In this document: positions 2,247-49,792 of the stretch, in pieces | How the letters are laid out: each line of letters starts with the position of its first letter | How positions within the stretch are numbered: the first letter of the stretch is position 1 | Source: Flavihumibacter profundi | GTDB lineage: Bacteria > Bacteroidota > Bacteroidia > Chitinophagales > Chitinophagaceae | Direction: 5' to 3' | Assembly: GCF_020076305.1 (NCBI RefSeq) | Contig: NZ_JAIQXE010000002.1 | Span: 496,001-560,000 of the forward strand | DNA length: 64,000 nucleotides | Notes under the pieces: model-generated | Seen by the model: the letters and a program-made list of their open reading frames with translations, nothing else | Database searches by the model: none | What the model was told of the DNA's origin: nothing | Position numbers and translations under genes: made by a program

Positions 2247-2908
2247 TGCATCGGTTCAAACTTATATACCTGTTGGTCTTGTTTTTTGGCCAGGGAATGA
2301 TGGCCCAGTCGCCCCCGTTTTTTGATGACATGCAGGCCTTTAAAAAAATGGACAGTGTCCATAAGCCGCCAAAGCAGGCTATTTTGTTTGTAGGCAGCTC
2401 TTCCTTCACCAAATGGACCGACCTGCAGGATTATTTTCCGGGATATACCCTTATCAACCGCGGGTTTGGCGGCTCTTCACTGCCCGACCTTATCCGGTAT
2501 GAAAATGATATTATCTTTCCCTATAAACCCAGGCAGGTTGTGATCTATTGCGGTGAAAATGATTTTGCAGCAGCAGATACGGTTACAACTGATATGGTGT
2601 TTGCCCGCTTCACCCGTTTATATTCGGATATCCGTCACCGGTTACCAAAAGTTTCCATTGTATTTGTATCCATAAAACCCAGTCCGAGTCGCCGGCACCT
2701 GCAACCCAAAATAATTGCAGCGAACCAGCAGATCCGTGGTTTTTTGTCGAAAGAAAAAAATACAGCATTTGTAGATGTTTATCCGTTGATGCTGGAAAGT
2801 GACGGGTCAATGATGGGGCAAATTTTTCTTGCCGATAGCCTGCACATGAATGCCGGCGGATATGCTATCTGGAAAAAAGCGATCCAGCCATATTTACTGA
2901 AAAAATAA
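2246..2908 (+). CDS. Secreted SGNH/GDSL-type esterase or lipase
   Basis: A 220-residue exported hydrolase with a signal peptide of about 20 residues. SGNH blocks are visible: nucleophile Ser in LFVGSSSFTKW (near residue 51-52), the block II Gly in NRGFGGSS, the block III GEND at 103-106, and the DxxH pair Asp197/His200 in DSLHMNAGGY. Such enzymes in carbohydrate operons often remove acetyl groups from xylan or pectin, which would fit the GH43 partner; the acetyl-esterase role is inference. The gene starts on the last base of the GH43 stop region and ends 10 bases before the GH3 gene. Confidence 0.88.
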   Translation: MHRFKLIYLLVLFFGQGMMAQSPPFFDDMQAFKKMDSVHKPPKQAILFVGSSSFTKWTDLQDYFPGYTLINRGFGGSSLPDLIRYENDIIFPYKPRQVVIYCGENDFAAADTVTTDMVFARFTRLYSDIRHRLPKVSIVFVSIKPSPSRRHLQPKIIAANQQIRGFLSKEKNTAFVDVYPLMLESDGSMMGQIFLADSLHMNAGGYAIWKKAIQPYLLKK

Positions 2909-2918
2909 AACCGCATAT

Positions 2919-5210
2919 ATGAAATTTCCTTTTAGGTGCTTTACCCTCCTGGCCCTGGTGTTATTTTATAGCATAGCAAATGCGCAAACTTCCGATCCGG
3001 CAAAAATGAAATCCTTCATTGATGCCTTAATGGCCAGGATGACGACCGAAGAGAAAATAGGGCAACTTAACCTGGTCGTTGGCGGTGAAGCCACTACGGG
3101 TTCTGTGGTAAGCATGGATGTTAGCAGTAAGATCCGTAAAGGCCAGGTTGGTGGCATCTTCAGTGTAACTACCCCGAACCGGGTGAGAAAGGCGCAGGAA
3201 ATGGCAGTGAATGAAAGTCGTTTGAAGATCCCTATGCTCTTTGGCCTGGATGTAATTCATGGCTACAAGACTATTTTCCCGATACCCCTTGGACTGAGTT
3301 GCTCCTGGGATATGCAATTAATTGAACAAAGTGCAAGGATTGCCGCACAGGAAGCAAGCGCAGATGGATTAAACTGGACTTTTTCCCCGATGGTTGATAT
3401 TTCCCGCGACCCAAGATGGGGGCGTGTTGCAGAAGGTTCTGGTGAAGACCCGTACCTGGGTTCCGCAATCGCCAAAGCAATGGTTAAGGGATACCAGGGC
3501 GATGATCTTTCCGCGAAAAACACCATTATGGCCTGTGTAAAGCATTATGCACTCTACGGCGCAGCTGAGGGCGGGCGTGATTATAATACTGTTGATATGA
3601 GCAGGGTGCGTATGTATAATGAATATTTCCCACCCTATAAAGCCGCAGTGGATGCAGGTGTTGCTACCGTAATGACTTCCTTTAATGAAATCGATGGTAT
3701 CCCCGCTACTGCCAACAAATGGCTGATTACTGATGTGTTGCGCAAACAATGGGGCTTCAGGGGAATGGTGGTTTCTGATTATACATCCGTTAATGAAATG
3801 ACCAGCCATGGATTGGGTGACCTGAAAACAGTATCGGCACTGGCTATTAAAGCCGGGCTTGATATGGATATGGTGGGTGAGGGTTTCCTCACAACATTGC
3901 AGCAGTCCTTAAAGGAAGGGAAAGTAACCATGGCAGATATCAATCGCGCCTGCAGGATGGTTTTGGAATCGAAATACAAACTCGGGTTATTTGAAGACCC
4001 TTATCGGTATTGTGATGAGAACCGCGCGAAAAATGAACTTTTTACGGAAGCGAACCGCAAACAGGAACGCATAACCGCTGCGCATTCTTTCGTGTTATTA
4101 AAAAACCAGGGGCCTGTCCTGCCACTCTCCAGGAAAGGCTCCATTGCACTGGTTGGTCCATTGGCCGACAGCAGGGAAAATTTAGTGGGTACCTGGAGCG
4201 TTGCTGCAGATTACGCAAACCCCCCAATCTCATTGTTGACCGCAATTAAACAGGCTGTTGGCTCTTCTGCCAATGTCCTCTATGCTAAAGGAGCCAACTT
4301 AACCCGGGACGCTGATATGGAAGCCAGGGTAAGCATATTTGGAAAGAAAATGGAAAGGGATAATCGCCCGGCTGACGTACTGATTGATGAAGCGCTGAAA
4401 GTCGCCGCAGGGGCCGATGTAATTGTTGCGGCCCTGGGTGAAGCCGCTGAAATGACCGGGGAATCATCCAGCCGGTCTGATATTAGCCTTCCTTCCAGCC
4501 AGAAGGATTTATTAAAAGCATTGGTTAATACCGGGAAACCGGTTGTCGTGGTGTTATTCACCGGCAGGCCCCTTGTTTTGCCTGAAGAAGAAAAAATCGC
4601 CACCGCGATCCTGAACGTTTGGTTTCCTGGTTCTGAAGGCGCCAATGCCATTGCGGATGTGTTGTTTGGCGATGTAAACCCTTCAGGAAAACTAACTGCC
4701 AGTTTCCCCAGGAGCGTTGGCCAGATTCCCATTTACTACAGCAGCAAAAATACCGGCCGCCCTCTTGTGGGAACCGGCTTCGAGAAATTCAGGTCCAATT
4801 ACCTGGATGTACCCAATGATCCGTTATTTCCTTTTGGCTATGGGTTGAGCTATACCAGTTTTGGATATAGTGAAGTAAAACTCAGTAGTGCAAATCTGAA
4901 AGGAAACCAAAAGCTGGAAGCATCGGTAACGGTGACCAATACCGGAAAATATGCCGGCGAAGAAGTGGTGCAATTGTATATCCGTGATATTGTAGGTACC
5001 AATACCAGGCCGTTGAAAGAATTGAAAGGGTTCCGGAAAATCAGCCTGCAGCCGGGAGAGGCAAAGCAGGTAAACTTTACCGTTAGTACCGACGATCTCC
5101 GGTTTTATAATAATGACCTCAAATACGACTGGGAGCCCGGCGCTTTCCGCATTTTTATCGGGACAAATTCGAGGGATACAAAATCAGCCGACGTAAATTG
5201 GACAAAGTAA
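2919..5210 (+). CDS. bglX: Glycoside hydrolase family 3 beta-glucosidase (BglX type)
   Basis: A 763-residue secreted enzyme with a signal peptide ending near residue 22. It has the GH3 N-terminal barrel (RDPRWGRVAEGSGEDPYL, KHYALYGAAEGGRDYN), the nucleophile Asp287 in MVVSDYTSV, the alpha/beta sandwich domain with a likely acid/base Glu515 in MTGESSSRSDISLP, and a C-terminal fibronectin-III-like domain. The length matches periplasmic BglX enzymes that cleave beta-linked gluco- or xylo-oligosaccharides from the non-reducing end. Only 10 bases separate it from the SGNH gene, so it is part of the same operon and probably finishes degradation of oligosaccharides released upstream. The gene symbol is by architecture, not by proven orthology. 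Confidence 0.92.
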   Translation: MKFPFRCFTLLALVLFYSIANAQTSDPAKMKSFIDALMARMTTEEKIGQLNLVVGGEATTGSVVSMDVSSKIRKGQVGGIFSVTTPNRVRKAQEMAVNESRLKIPMLFGLDVIHGYKTIFPIPLGLSCSWDMQLIEQSARIAAQEASADGLNWTFSPMVDISRDPRWGRVAEGSGEDPYLGSAIAKAMVKGYQGDDLSAKNTIMACVKHYALYGAAEGGRDYNTVDMSRVRMYNEYFPPYKAAVDAGVATVMTSFNEIDGIPATANKWLITDVLRKQWGFRGMVVSDYTSVNEMTSHGLGDLKTVSALAIKAGLDMDMVGEGFLTTLQQSLKEGKVTMADINRACRMVLESKYKLGLFEDPYRYCDENRAKNELFTEANRKQERITAAHSFVLLKNQGPVLPLSRKGSIALVGPLADSRENLVGTWSVAADYANPPISLLTAIKQAVGSSANVLYAKGANLTRDADMEARVSIFGKKMERDNRPADVLIDEALKVAAGADVIVAALGEAAEMTGESSSRSDISLPSSQKDLLKALVNTGKPVVVVLFTGRPLVLPEEEKIATAILNVWFPGSEGANAIADVLFGDVNPSGKLTASFPRSVGQIPIYYSSKNTGRPLVGTGFEKFRSNYLDVPNDPLFPFGYGLSYTSFGYSEVKLSSANLKGNQKLEASVTVTNTGKYAGEEVVQLYIRDIVGTNTRPLKELKGFRKISLQPGEAKQVNFTVSTDDLRFYNNDLKYDWEPGAFRIFIGTNSRDTKSADVNWTK

Positions 5211-5234
5211 TATTAACTAGATTACACGCCGAAT

Positions 5235-6026
5235 ATGAAACCGAAAAAATTGTTTTCCGCAATTCCACTGGCACTGGCAGTCTTTATCTGCTCTTTTTCC
5301 ACCCACCAGAAAGACAACAGGAAGTGGATTGAACTTTTCAATGGAAAAGATATCAAAGACTGGATGGTTAAGATCAACCACCATGATGTCGGCGATAATT
5401 TTGGTAATACCTTCCGGGTAGAAGATGGTATCATAAAAGTGCGGTACGATAAGTACAAAGACTTTAATGAACAGTTTGGGCACCTTTATTACAAGACGCC
5501 TTATTCATATTATCATTTGTTGGTGGAATACCGCATAACCGGGGAGTTTTTAAAATCCGCCCCCGAATATGCTATGAGAAATAGCGGCGTAATGCTGCAT
5601 TCCCAGGATCCACGAACAATGCTCAAAGACCAGGATTGGCCTATTTCGGTGGAGTTGCAACTGCTGGCCGGACTGGATGACGGATTGCCCAGGCCAACCG
5701 GAAATATGTGTTCCCCGGGTACCGATGTCGAATTCAAAGGCCGCATTGACCCGCGGCATTGCATAGAATCCAGTTCCAAAACATACAAACTCGACGAATG
5801 GGTAACTGTTGAAGCCATTGTGCTCGGCGATTCTTTAATTACGCATATAGTTAACGGTGATACAGTATTGCAATATGCACACCCGCAGGTTGGTGGGGGT
5901 GTGGTGCACAATTATGATCCCGCACAAAAGCAGGATGGCAAATTGCTGAAAAGCGGTTTCATTGCCCTCCAGGCAGAAGGCCAGCCCGTCGATTTCAGGC
6001 GCGTCGCAATCCAGGTCTTGAAGTGA
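5235..6026 (+). CDS. DUF1080 (3-keto-disaccharide hydrolase fold) secreted protein
   Basis: A 263-residue protein with an N-terminal export signal (LFSAIPLALAVFICSFS, possibly a lipoprotein signal through the Cys). It has a concanavalin-like jelly roll carrying the DUF1080 start signature WIELFNGKDIKDWMVK and later SVELQLLAG and NMCSPG. Characterised Bacteroidota members of DUF1080 include 3-keto-glucoside hydrolases, and others simply bind carbohydrate. It follows bglX by 24 bases on the same strand and looks like the last gene of the operon. The stop codon is directly followed by three ATTCACC-type heptamers. Confidence 0.88.
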   Translation: MKPKKLFSAIPLALAVFICSFSTHQKDNRKWIELFNGKDIKDWMVKINHHDVGDNFGNTFRVEDGIIKVRYDKYKDFNEQFGHLYYKTPYSYYHLLVEYRITGEFLKSAPEYAMRNSGVMLHSQDPRTMLKDQDWPISVELQLLAGLDDGLPRPTGNMCSPGTDVEFKGRIDPRHCIESSSKTYKLDEWVTVEAIVLGDSLITHIVNGDTVLQYAHPQVGGGVVHNYDPAQKQDGKLLKSGFIALQAEGQPVDFRRVAIQVLK

Positions 6027-41341: not shown

Positions 41342-41794
41342 ATGGGGCAGAGAATCTTGTTGTTGCTGTTTGTAGTTTCAGGCTTTTTAGTAGCGCCTGG
41401 CGCACAGGCTCAGTACAAAGCGGATTCGGCGAAAATTGTTACCCTGCTTGAAGAAGATTACAAAACCCTGGCTAATTACGATACAATTAAGCATCGGCTG
41501 AATTGCACCTACGATTACCAGCTTGTTGAAGAAGGCGAAGTGTGGAATATCGATAAAGAGATCGATTATATTTCAAAAATTGCCCTTTCAAAAGCCAGCC
41601 GTACCAATGAATTCTTCATCCGCTCCGTAAAGATAAGCGGCTCAACAGCCTACGCGGTTTATGACCTGAGATCCACTATTACCGAAGAAGGCAATGCAAA
41701 AAAATACCGATGGCTGGAATCAGCAATTTTCAGGAAGGTAGGCAACCGCTGGAGGATTGCACTCATCCACTCTACCCGCGTCGAACGGTTGTAA
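41342..41794 (+). CDS. Secreted NTF2/DUF4440-like protein
   Basis: A 150-residue exported protein with a signal peptide ending GAQAQ. The mature part matches the DUF4440/NTF2-like fold: helical LLEEDYKTLANYDTIKHRLN followed by strands ending in WLESAIFRKVGNRWRIALIH. Such domains are usually small-molecule binding or catalytic pockets of unknown ligand. It is preceded by a perfect palindrome and followed after 20 bases by the large dyad-containing protein, with which it probably forms an operon. Confidence 0.85.
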   Translation: MGQRILLLLFVVSGFLVAPGAQAQYKADSAKIVTLLEEDYKTLANYDTIKHRLNCTYDYQLVEEGEVWNIDKEIDYISKIALSKASRTNEFFIRSVKISGSTAYAVYDLRSTITEEGNAKKYRWLESAIFRKVGNRWRIALIHSTRVERL

Positions 41795-41814
41795 ATCCTG
41801 ATACTATTTTTTCC

Positions 41815-43968
41815 ATGTACAGAGCCATTTACAGTTTGATTATAATTTTATACTGTAATACAAACACGGTAAATGCCCAGTCGACTTTAGGTGAAGCCAA
41901 TGCATCATTAGACGCCGCACAGGTAAAATTTTTAAGCTTCCTGGACAATTTTCATGGAGACAAGGGCATACGTTCGATGATGGTAGATTTTTGCAATAAC
42001 CAGGTCGATAGCCTCCAGGCCGCATTTAATGCAATAGAACCTGCAGGCAGGGAAGAGAAAATAAAAAGCATCAATACGGTAAAGTTTTTTATACAGGCAC
42101 TCAGGACAACTTTGGAGCGCCATAAATTGGAATTGTATGATGTACCTGATGCCTTGCAAAAGTTCCCTTTGATTGCTGATGCTATTGTACACAAAACGCC
42201 TTACCGGGAGTATGTCCTGGGATTCGGGGGCCGCCGCACACAACTCATGGCAGATGCATTCCGGCAATACCCTGAAGGAAAGATACTTCAATATGCTGCT
42301 GACGTCCGCAGGCTGTCGGTTAATCCCGACAATATTCTACCCTTGTTAGAACGCCAGCCCGAATTCCCTTTTATCGATACTGCCATTTTATATGTTGCTG
42401 AGCATTCCCCCATGAGTATAGTGGATTATGTGTCAACGAAAAATAACAGGATTACCGACACGATTAAGCACCTTAATCATCCTTTGCTCAACCAGCTTTT
42501 ATTGTTATCGGGTAACAGGAATGCAACAGAGATAGCCCCGCTTGCCGGGGAAATGGCGCTTGGGAAATATACTGCAGAAGACATTCAAAAAATCAGGAGT
42601 TCAGATGTAAAAGGTTATTACCAGTTATTGGTAAATACCATCCAGTCTAACCGGTCAATATTGCTGGCTGGGGGTCCTGCCGGCATGCAACCTGCACTCA
42701 GGGCAGCTTTGAAAGAAAAAGCCATTGCCTTTTATGTGCAGCCGGTAAATGAATTGCACGAATCAAAAGACCCGGTGCGATTTGCCAGCCTTAGGCCACT
42801 CAGGGTAATTGATCTGTATTACCTGGTAATCAGCGGTGAGGAAGAATTGTATACCTCCAGTTTCCTGGGTATATATAAGCGCATCATGCAGGCAATTCCT
42901 GCAGGTAGTTCAGATAGTTTATTAACAATGGTGCAATATGACCAGTTCAGGAAATTTATCCGGGTGTGCTCGCACTATAATGTACTTACGGACTTCCTGA
43001 ACCACATGCCGGAATTGTCAAGGGTTACTTTGTTGAAACAGTTTATTACCGGCATTGAAGGGAATACAGAAAGCGGCCTTGAAGATGCCATGGATGTTGC
43101 CGATGCTTTTGCAGGCCTGTCGGTAGACCCGCAATACAGCGGCATTGTTGAACAACTGCTGAAGGATAACCGGGTAAGGTGTGAACTGGACAAAAACTAT
43201 TATGGTATCCGGCTTTATGGAATTTTATTGGATGTATTCAATATGGCACATGACCCAAATGAGCAAAAAGTGATTTTCAGCAAACTAGGGAATTACGAAT
43301 TGCTTCCGGTTGAAGCTGTAAGGGATAAAAAAGGGGTCATCAATCAACTGGTTATCTTTTATGGGGATAAGGATGGTATGACCTCTTTCCAGAATTTCCT
43401 TGCCCTGTTTAAAGATGCAAAGACCTGGCAGGTTGCTGCCAAACCGCAATGGATAGAAATCAATTCCATTTCTGGTTCCCAGCCAATAAAAATCTTTGCA
43501 AACAGGCCTTTGAGCCATGAAGACCACCTCGATGAGGAAGCCCAGCTGGCAATGCTCCAATATATGAAGGAGACAGAAGCAGAAGCCGGAATTATTATTC
43601 ACCGCGGACATAGTTACCATTTGGCTTCAACTCTGAATTACCTGCAGCCCAATATGAAACTGGCTATACTTGGGTCTTGCGGCGGATACAAAAATATCCT
43701 TACAGTTGCCGAAAAAAGCCCGGCGGCACAGGTAGTAGCAACAAAGCAGGTCGGTTCAAAGCTAATTAACGACCCGATGATCCTTATGGTGAATGATTAC
43801 CTGCTACATTCCAGGGATATTTACTGGCCGGATGCATGGACGAAAATGGGTGCCAGATTTGCTTCATCTAACTTTACGCATGACCTTTTTGCAGAATATG
43901 TACCGCCATACCGGAACCTGGGCCTGTTTGTTATAAGGCTGTATAATTATGATGAAGCAAGTTTCTGA
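41815..43968 (+). CDS. Secreted helical protein with a C-terminal clan-CD-protease-like His/Cys pair
   Basis: A 717-residue protein with a signal peptide (MYRAIYSLIIILYCNTNTVN, cleaved near NAQ). Residues about 25-480 are mainly helical and of no known family. Near the C-terminus a hydrophobic strand leads to IIIHRGHSYH (His596/His599) and a second strand to LAILGSCGGY (Cys622), then VVATKQVGSKLINDP. Strand-H-G/strand-C layout is that of clan CD peptidases (caspase, gingipain, separase, CHAT). The 23-residue His-Cys spacing is short, near that of separases as I recall it. The ATG at 41815 is chosen for the signal peptide. Protease activity is inference. Confidence 0.7.
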   Translation: MYRAIYSLIIILYCNTNTVNAQSTLGEANASLDAAQVKFLSFLDNFHGDKGIRSMMVDFCNNQVDSLQAAFNAIEPAGREEKIKSINTVKFFIQALRTTLERHKLELYDVPDALQKFPLIADAIVHKTPYREYVLGFGGRRTQLMADAFRQYPEGKILQYAADVRRLSVNPDNILPLLERQPEFPFIDTAILYVAEHSPMSIVDYVSTKNNRITDTIKHLNHPLLNQLLLLSGNRNATEIAPLAGEMALGKYTAEDIQKIRSSDVKGYYQLLVNTIQSNRSILLAGGPAGMQPALRAALKEKAIAFYVQPVNELHESKDPVRFASLRPLRVIDLYYLVISGEEELYTSSFLGIYKRIMQAIPAGSSDSLLTMVQYDQFRKFIRVCSHYNVLTDFLNHMPELSRVTLLKQFITGIEGNTESGLEDAMDVADAFAGLSVDPQYSGIVEQLLKDNRVRCELDKNYYGIRLYGILLDVFNMAHDPNEQKVIFSKLGNYELLPVEAVRDKKGVINQLVIFYGDKDGMTSFQNFLALFKDAKTWQVAAKPQWIEINSISGSQPIKIFANRPLSHEDHLDEEAQLAMLQYMKETEAEAGIIIHRGHSYHLASTLNYLQPNMKLAILGSCGGYKNILTVAEKSPAAQVVATKQVGSKLINDPMILMVNDYLLHSRDIYWPDAWTKMGARFASSNFTHDLFAEYVPPYRNLGLFVIRLYNYDEASF

Positions 43969-44381: not shown

Positions 44382-44804
44382 ATGAAAGCGCTATTCCTCG
44401 GGTTGGTTCTTTTAGTCACTTCATCCCTTTTTGCCCAGCAAAATGCTGAAAATGCGATCCGGCAGGTAATGGGTGATCAGCAGGATGCCTGGAACCAGGG
44501 GGATATTGAATCATTTATGAAAGGATACTGGAAGTCAGATTCACTGATGTTTATTGGTAGCAAAGGGGTCACTTACGGATTCCGGAATACATGGGAACGG
44601 TATAAGAAAACCTATGACAACCGTGATAAAATGGGTACCTTAAAATTCGACCTTCTGCATATTCTCCCGCTTTCGCCAGAAGTTTATATGGTAGTGGGTA
44701 AATGGCATTTAACCCGTTCAATTGGTGATATCGGCGGCCACTTCACACTGATCTTCAGGAAAATAAATGGCCAGTGGTTAATCACTTCAGACCATACCAG
44801 CTAG
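44382..44804 (+). CDS. Secreted DUF4440/SnoaL-like protein
   Basis: A 140-residue exported protein (signal peptide ending SSLFAQQ). It has the DUF4440 signature MGDQQDAWNQGDIESFMKGY, SLMFIGSKGVTYGFRNTWER and a C-terminal HFTLIFRKINGQWLITSDHT. The fold suits binding or conversion of a small molecule in the periplasm; the ligand is unknown. It is a second member of the NTF2-like superfamily within 3.5 kb but is not closely similar to the one at 41342. Confidence 0.88.
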   Translation: MKALFLGLVLLVTSSLFAQQNAENAIRQVMGDQQDAWNQGDIESFMKGYWKSDSLMFIGSKGVTYGFRNTWERYKKTYDNRDKMGTLKFDLLHILPLSPEVYMVVGKWHLTRSIGDIGGHFTLIFRKINGQWLITSDHTS

Positions 44805-48691: not shown

Positions 48692-49792
48692 ATGAATCGA
48701 AATATCTTTTGGTGTTTTTTTCTGCTGCTTTTGTCTGCTAATTATTCTATGGCACAAATCACAAATAAAAGGTCTGTAATTGCCTATTATACCGGTGATG
48801 AAAACACTATCCGAAAATACCCGCTGGCCAGTTTAACACACATCATTTACAGTTTTCTCAAACTCGAGGGTGATACCCTCGCTTTTATACGACCTGAGCA
48901 GCAGCAAACACTAAGGTCGTTAGTTGCATTGAAGAAAAAATTCCCGCAATTAAAAGTTGAGGTTTCTTTAGGCGGGTGGGGTGGTTGCCAGCCATGTTCC
49001 CAGTCATTTGCCAGTGCCGGTGTAAGGCAAAAATTTTCAGCAAGCGTGGTTAAGTTATTAACTGCATACGGCGCAGATGGTTTAGATCTCGATTGGGAAT
49101 ATCCGGGTATTGAAGGATTCCCGGGCCATCACTGGATGAAGGAAGATGTGGCAAACTTTACTGAATTGGTTCGTTCGCTAAGGTCAGCTATGGGGCAACG
49201 TTATGAACTTAGTTTTGCTGCGGGTGGGTTTACCCGGTTCCTGGAAGAATCAATCGACTGGAAGCAGGTCATGCCTTTGGTTGACCGGGTTAACCTGATG
49301 ACCTATGACCTTGTTAATGGATATAGTAGGACTACAGGGCATCATACTGCCCTGCATGCAACTGAAAAGCAACCTGAGGCCACAGACCATTGCGTTGATT
49401 ACCTTTTAAAGCTTGGCGTTCCTTCAGAAAAACTGGTAATAGGGGCTGCATTTTATGCCCGCGTCTGGAAAAATGTTCCATCTGAAAATAATGGACTTTT
49501 CCAACCAGGGGAATTCAAAACAATGATAAGCTATAAGGATTTTGGTAATGAACTTTCAACCGCCAATGGGTTTGTTTCATTTTGGGATGATGCATCCAAA
49601 GCACCTTATAGTTATAATGCCCGGAAGCTGGAGTTTGCCACTTATGATAATGAACGGTCAATAGCTGAAAAAACAAAGTATGTACTGGACAAAAAGCTGG
49701 GCGGAATAATGTTCTGGGAACTTAGCGGAGACAAATTTAATTCGGGCTTATTGGACCAGATCCACAATACCCTTATAGCTTCCCAAAAATAA
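48692..49792 (+). CDS. Secreted GH18 chitinase-like glycosidase
   Basis: A 366-residue exported TIM-barrel enzyme (signal peptide ending near YSMAQ). The GH18 signatures are SLGGWGGC (near 93-99) and the catalytic DGLDLDWEYPG, with Asp129, Asp132, Asp134 and the acid Glu136. VNLMTYDLVNGYS and the final GGIMFWELSGDK complete the barrel. It should hydrolyse chitin or chito-oligosaccharides, possibly also peptidoglycan-derived GlcNAc chains. It lacks binding modules and a T9SS tail, unlike the divergent esterase. Confidence 0.94.
   Translation: MNRNIFWCFFLLLLSANYSMAQITNKRSVIAYYTGDENTIRKYPLASLTHIIYSFLKLEGDTLAFIRPEQQQTLRSLVALKKKFPQLKVEVSLGGWGGCQPCSQSFASAGVRQKFSASVVKLLTAYGADGLDLDWEYPGIEGFPGHHWMKEDVANFTELVRSLRSAMGQRYELSFAAGGFTRFLEESIDWKQVMPLVDRVNLMTYDLVNGYSRTTGHHTALHATEKQPEATDHCVDYLLKLGVPSEKLVIGAAFYARVWKNVPSENNGLFQPGEFKTMISYKDFGNELSTANGFVSFWDDASKAPYSYNARKLEFATYDNERSIAEKTKYVLDKKLGGIMFWELSGDKFNSGLLDQIHNTLIASQK

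Follow-up and report, generated by a model that had tools for sequence, protein, structure and literature searches.

The window, a stretch of 64,000 nucleotides of Flavihumibacter profundi DNA, carries on its forward strand a gene for a probably exported protein of 717 amino acids, in which a long helical region is followed by an alpha/beta domain with a candidate His/Cys active site. The gene, its parts and its upstream neighbour are as follows.

41342..41794, + strand: gene for an NTF2-like (DUF4440/SnoaL_3) protein (DUF4440 E = 1.6e-6), upstream, not a conserved partner
41815..43968, + strand: gene for the predicted exported protein (717 aa), the 'A' copy, a genus-level duplicate within a core family
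41815..41877, + strand: predicted signal peptide, residues 1-21, cleaved after VNA (hydropathy; site by eye)
41878..43275, + strand: helical region, residues 22-487 (low-confidence helices), with an invariant YTSS block, Y346-S349 (conservation, 26 sequences)
43276..43965, + strand: C-terminal alpha/beta domain, residues 488-717, putatively caspase-like
43357..43377, + strand: FYGDKDG loop after the first strand (D518, D520; conservation)
43600..43617, + strand: HRGHSY motif with the candidate catalytic H599; H596 is also conserved
43672..43686, + strand: GSCGG motif with the candidate nucleophile C622
43744..43770, + strand: KQVGSKLIN loop after the next strand (N652; conservation)
43825..43839, + strand: W671 and W675 (conservation)
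43897..43917, + strand: YVPPYRN block (Y695, P698, N701; conservation)

The first ATG of the open reading frame would give a gene at 41710 to 43968 of the forward strand, overlapping the preceding gene; the start at 41815 is favoured because a signal peptide fits there, although inspection by eye revealed no strong ribosome-binding site before it. From this start, the three residues singled out in the original prediction, H596, H599 and C622, are found at the positions given there, with HRGHSYH beginning at residue 596, GSCGG at 620 and SKLINDP at 648. The signal peptide is likewise borne out by a hydrophobic N-terminus and a plausible signal-peptidase-I site between VNA and QS, as judged from hydropathy and, by eye, the motif. 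A motif check found no lipobox at the N-terminus of the window protein, and among 26 aligned members the lipobox pattern is matched by L005 alone. No NCBIfam family, including TIGR04183, which we take to be the type IX C-terminal sorting domain model of the library searched, matches the window protein at E <= 1. Of the periplasmic or surface location first proposed, export to a probably periplasmic location is thus plausible, and surface location by the type IX route finds no support in these matches.

No model of Pfam or NCBIfam matches the window protein at E <= 1, so that the suggestion of a new family stands, and the best match in a search of PDB sequences (E 0.26) is not usable. At the same threshold, neither CHAT (PF12770), caspase C14 (PF00656), gingipain C25 (PF01364) nor separase C50 (presumably PF03568 in the library searched) was matched by the window protein or appears among the families listed for the 26 members, and the PF00656 profile has no match throughout the window's genome. 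The helical region, predicted with low confidence before about residue 488, is also of no known family, as claimed, in that Pfam does not match it in the window protein. DUF7923 is matched by 4 of the 26 members (best E 9.4e-5) and was set aside as an identity, all four matches lying in the helical region (residues 370-461) and below the curated cut-off; the best, at residues 370-431 of L030, reaches 22.7 bits against a cut-off of 24.5, and the three others are weaker. DUF7923 may nevertheless be a lead for the helical region. An EF-hand reading of a GDxDxDG loop was rejected, the Pfam EF-hand matches (E 0.06-0.42) being not significant; the FYGDKDG loop resembles the calcium-loop pattern, and some core copies (GDEDKDG) come closer to it. 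A literature search listed nothing on the protein family or on periplasmic caspase-like clan CD proteins in Bacteroidetes; the string HRGHSY was absent from the literature searched, and HRGHS occurred only under a plant-gene title. Among the titles listed for Chitinophaga and caspase, one is topical, a survey of caspase homologues in prokaryotes from 2012.

The proposed dyad is conserved among homologues. The fetched loci gave 214 domain matches, of which 213 were kept at a coverage of at least 70%, corresponding to 184 distinct domains from 172 loci; this is a non-random sample, mostly from one bacterial family, with some overlapping loci, and it was found by profiles that contain the motifs. 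C622 is present in all 184 distinct domains and H599 in 183, the exception being a single Tyr. Around H599, R597, G598 and S600 are invariant and H596 is kept in 182 of the 184; around C622, G620 and G623 are each invariant and S621 is kept in 182. Further along the domain, W671, W675, Y695 and P698 occur in 184/184, D518 in 183, N701 in 183 (with one gap), N652 in 182 and D520 in 181, and the most conserved blocks sit directly after predicted strands. The distance from His to Cys is 23 in each of 214 motif matches (duplicates counted, allowed range 15 to 65) and in 211 of 211 matches to a stricter motif.

The same site recurs in a second phylum. A tblastn search of plasmids identified four Azospirillum proteins (L341-L344) with 27-32% identity, all annotated as 'hypothetical protein'; the distribution outside Bacteroidota reported here is that seen in plasmid records. 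The domain profile matches all four (2.7e-50 to 1.3e-44 in a search of 19 proteins), and the helical-region profile matches one of them over 53 residues (2.6e-7). HRGHSYH and GSCGG are intact in all four, as are DxDG (D518, D520), N652, W671, W675, Y695 and P698; K644-Q645 and P697 are lost. Because these motifs persist at such low identity, the site has survived divergence across two phyla, and because HRGHS and GSCG are also near invariant in the 184 domains, the pattern is not due to chance. The conservation in Azospirillum is the best evidence for a functional His/Cys site. Three of the four Azospirillum genes have ethanolamine ammonia-lyase/DUF1194 genes on one side and a gene for a LysE-type transporter on the other.

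Members of the family were found in 41 of 59 genomes, namely the window's own, 14/14 of the same genus, 20/21 of the same bacterial family and 6/23 others of the order. The window's genome also encodes a paralogue with 35% identity to the window copy. Of the 14 same-genus genomes, 13 have copies more than 50% identical to the window copy (A copies), which the remaining genomes among the 59 lack; the fourteenth, G008, has the other type only (34%). Of 396 genomes from the order, 176 contain the family according to the domain profile: 131 of the 133 genomes of the window's bacterial family, as counted from a profile listing that omits 200 matchless genomes and that had already passed beyond this family, and 45 more from the order's other families. 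A phylum-wide draw gave matches at E <= 0.001 in 14 of 395 genomes, all from the window's bacterial family; weak matches in 13 further genomes (E 0.00135 to 0.75) were taken as chance, all covering under 100 positions of the profile and five of them containing stops. A single-sequence scan of genome contigs yielded one close relative, and no relatives were found in viral contigs or in phage records. A 188-domain tree with Azospirillum as its root places the 13 A copies in a single clade with a support of 1.0, whose sister group has a support of just 0.11. The window copy is a genus-level duplicate, and the gene is near-universal in its bacterial family.

Several loci carry a second copy. That of L254 has one in-frame stop codon, which may mean a duplicate in decay or an error in the sequence. 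L050, L051 and L052, from the order's other families, have tandem pairs in which a protein of about 670-700 aa is encoded beside one of 931-1076 aa; the long proteins of L050 and L051 have two helical regions followed by one His/Cys domain. In L052, the long partner (2474-5266, 931 aa) carries Tyr where H599 would be and keeps the Cys; it is a possible pseudoenzyme partner.

The A copy adjoins genes that were identified by eye as encoding a UvrD-type helicase and an arsenate-reductase/Spx-like protein, as well as DUF4440 genes. On either side of it a separate DUF4440/SnoaL-like protein is encoded, at 41342-41794 and 44382-44804; the downstream one is kept in those genus relatives whose flank reaches it, and the upstream one is mostly absent. 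The flanks examined measured about 1500 bases, so that neighbour absences are lower bounds. Core copies have a different setting, in which Pfam matches identify the exporter, the regulator and the kinase. In the 17 loci L002 and L016-L031, the core copy has a divergently transcribed response regulator next to it in 13 and an ABC exporter, which we take to be MsbA-type, downstream in 7; an ABC exporter follows the core copy in 26 of the 30 loci L195-L224, a biased set because these are the best-scoring ones of the domain-profile search. The other core loci, which partly come from the same genomes, were left out of these counts. The core paralogue of the window's own genome (L058, 8400-10685) has a divergent response regulator and a histidine kinase as neighbours, and an ABC exporter and ATP synthase subunit A are encoded downstream of it. 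From gene position, one might guess that the core family is tied to envelope export or stress.

The domain was also compared with known folds by structure prediction. Two AlphaFold2 models, each given two sequences, reached a pLDDT of 51.5 with a pTM of 0.51 and a pLDDT of 44.8 with a pTM of 0.32. With a poor model as query, Foldseek returned no match at E <= 0.001 (best E 5.8e-3, top rows small GTPases), and the best VIA-align match was Gtr1, with a Z of 8.5; no clan-CD chain was among the 50 structural matches listed, an absence that by the tool's own account excludes nothing, and the other rows were common alpha/beta folds. The structural comparison proposed with the original prediction was thus carried out, and its GTPase-like matches were taken as evidence neither way. 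A reading of the domain as a GTPase was rejected, as it lacks a GK[ST] P-loop motif. In the full-length low-confidence model, the predicted order is a strand (511-516), a helix, two strands (545-550 and 557-562), a helix, a strand (593-597), a helix, a strand (615-618), a helix and a strand (639-642); H599 and C622 directly follow the fourth and fifth strands, and the two low-confidence models are similar in this.

Coevolution was analysed in 184 sequences (equivalent to about 117 effective sequences at 80% identity), with the strand limits taken from the low-confidence model and with P values uncorrected throughout. By pseudolikelihood, the His strand and the Cys strand are the top pair, parallel and at register 23, which places H599 level with C622 (P 0.006 relative to 2553 segment pairs drawn at random, with 15 strand pairs tested and no correction). 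This pair is top in five of six mean-field settings and second in one; register 23 was obtained in four of the six (0.7 or 0.8 weighting, P 0.003-0.007) and register 20 in the two with 0.9 weighting (P 0.005-0.010). Of 12 random 70% subsamples, only 6 ranked the pair among the top three with register 23. The first strand and the His strand are among the top three pairs in all seven coevolution runs (P 0.02-0.07). A competing pair of the third strand with the His strand has a P of 0.028 by pseudolikelihood, the second and third strands pair in parallel and not as the expected hairpin (P 0.08 by pseudolikelihood, 0.007-0.041 by mean-field), and adjacency of the second and first strands, which the caspase/haemoglobinase fold requires, was not seen in these runs. 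According to an excerpt of a published definition, the strands of this fold are ordered 2-1-3-4 in the sheet, and the catalytic His and Cys sit at the C-terminal ends of the neighbouring, parallel strands 3 and 4 (PMC4357240); the predicted strand order and the His/Cys adjacency suggested by coevolution fit that definition as excerpted. Adjacency of the His and Cys strands is supported but not proven, and coevolution gives modest but independent support for a clan-CD layout.

Profile comparison, with family alignments built here, gave this family scores of 20.3 against CHAT (4 of 150 shuffles as high) and 20.6 against C14 (2 of 150); with the Azospirillum proteins added, 2 of 120 shuffles were as high for CHAT and the same for C14, and an earlier round of 60 shuffles, conducted without SDR, agrees. 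In the best local alignments, C622 falls on the catalytic Cys of both CHAT and C14, and H599 on the His of CHAT. No signal was seen between this family and C25 (105/150 shuffles as high), C11 (34/150) or SDR (127/150). However, a score near 20 is not discriminating, because SDR, the Rossmann control, equals it against CHAT (21.5-22.9, 0 of 40 shuffles as high; 13.4-18.4 against C14), whereas the true pair CHAT-C14 scores far above it (44.5-48.5); for this reason, weight is given only to the register. Because the true clan-CD pairs CHAT-C25 (15.1-15.7) and CHAT-C11 (12.7-16.2) also show nothing, the missing C25 and C11 signals are no counter-evidence. The loci kept were 25/30 for CHAT, 29/30 for C25, 25/30 for C14, 28/30 for SDR and the first 5 of 13 for C11, loci whose frame was ambiguous or whose domain was short being dropped from the CHAT, C25 and C14 sets; C80 was left out as a yardstick, its known members being toxins.

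Among known systems, CHAT proteins (PF12770) have a helical-repeat plus protease layout, and the profile alignment registers H599 and C622 on their His and Cys; they differ in that the score of this family is no better than that of the Rossmann control and in the spacing of the two residues. The spacing of 23 had been thought closest to those of separases and CHAT. In separase it is short, about 26 in the human protein; in CHAT it is 45-82 in the 18 of 25 sequences that a rough motif scan could score, so that the likeness to CHAT in spacing does not hold. The window's genome encodes a separate CHAT protein. Separases (C50) resemble the window protein in that, according to an excerpted description (PMC4626109), their N-terminal region is mostly helical and a caspase-like His/Cys domain lies at the C-terminus, but they are cell-cycle proteases, whereas the window protein is bacterial and probably exported, has His-Ser for His-Gly and lacks a Pfam match. 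Caspases and metacaspases (C14, PF00656) share the register of C622 on Cys, with a score slightly above the SDR control, and differ in having His-Gly where this family has His-Ser; PF00656 does not match. The gingipain family (C25, PF01364) comprises cysteine peptidases of Bacteroidota, with 2 matches in the window's genome, and shows no profile similarity to this family, although none is seen between C25 and CHAT either.

His precedes Cys in this family and both are strictly conserved, as in clan CD. A published account of the clan, as excerpted, places a Gly directly before the catalytic His and names as a hallmark the conserved His-Gly, with Gly after the catalytic His (PMC12445089). The preceding Gly is present here (G598, 184/184), but the residue after H599 is Ser (S600, 184/184 and 4/4 in Azospirillum). 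Because the His-Gly hallmark is missing and the fold is predicted, clan-CD membership is not claimed. A precedent is YabG, a His-Cys protease lacking sequence similarity to other clan-CD members, which, in the same excerpt, was proposed for the clan on the basis of its dyad and specificity; it differs in being a sporulation protease with Gly after His and with Ala-Cys, and is likened here by description and not by sequence (PMC12445089).

The clan-CD-like reading of the original prediction is thus partly supported: it is favoured by conservation, by residue order and by strand adjacency from coevolution, and loses the His-Gly pair, the CHAT spacing and the NTF2-like partner. We favour, with some confidence, an exported caspase-like cysteine peptidase that belongs to a new, unassigned family, and do not count it as a proven member of clan CD; the unnamed exported family is probably a new kind of cell-envelope cysteine protease. 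The residues, their conservation and the family with its distribution are established here directly. In the mechanism that we infer for the protein, with regard to export, fold, catalysis, substrate preference and role alike, the protein would be exported to the periplasm, where its C-terminal 230 residues would form a caspase/haemoglobinase-like alpha/beta domain. H599, ending one strand, would activate C622, ending the neighbouring strand, as in a clan-CD-like cysteine peptidase. The N-terminal helical region may recruit the substrate or gate the active site, as is thought of the helical part of separase. Where the first strand ends, D518 and D520 may line the substrate pocket or hold calcium, and the acidic pocket residues suggest that cleavage would occur after Arg or Lys. 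An excerpted account describes a P1 preference for Arg or Lys in metacaspases and clostripain and a calcium requirement in several clan-CD members (PMC4357240).

A different His/Cys enzyme or a metal site, in which H596, H599 and C622 of a Rossmann-like domain bind metal or form a non-peptidase thiol site, is the most serious competitor, though we consider it rather unlikely. It would account for H596 being conserved like H599 (182 and 183 of 184), and it gains from the invariant Ser after H599, which is unusual in clan CD, from the likeness of the poor model to common alpha/beta folds and from a CHAT profile score at the Rossmann-control level. The lack of a P-loop and the failure of the SDR profile to match the family argue against it, as does the clan-CD layout itself, in which His comes before Cys, each ending one of two successive predicted strands, with a distance of 23 and matching register. 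That the protein is instead a non-catalytic envelope protein, its helical region doing the work and its conserved motif being structural or binding, seems improbable: near-universality in one bacterial family suggests a housekeeping role, and the tandem copy of L052 has dispensed with the His, but H599 and C622 are otherwise nearly invariant in the distinct domains, and the top conserved blocks directly follow predicted strands, as those of an active site do.

The original prediction also placed the gene in a two-gene unit with the NTF2-like gene, which lies on the same strand at a gap of 20 bases, so that the two proteins might work as a pair. However, only 2 of 13 A-copy relatives (L003 and L007) have this gene upstream, and unrelated genes occupy the place in several others. 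The pairing is largely refuted by this neighbourhood comparison, and a joint function is very improbable.

If the favoured reading of an exported caspase-like peptidase is true, a near-universal envelope caspase-like protease of a whole bacterial family has been missed by Pfam and NCBIfam, the relaxed His-Gly rule widens what counts as clan CD, and a core envelope protease becomes testable outside the cell-death and defence settings usual for caspase-like domains. More speculatively, the family might consist of lineage-defining periplasmic caspase-like peptidases with a His-Ser dyad. The core copy, with a divergent two-component system on one side and often an MsbA-type exporter on the other, would then perhaps be a regulated envelope-processing protease, and the tandem partners with doubled helical regions and the His-less copy would be regulatory subunits; we put this forward as a tentative and rather doubtful extension. 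Elsewhere in the window, the gene at 48692-49792 encodes a putative exported GH18-like chitinase, named by eye from its motif.
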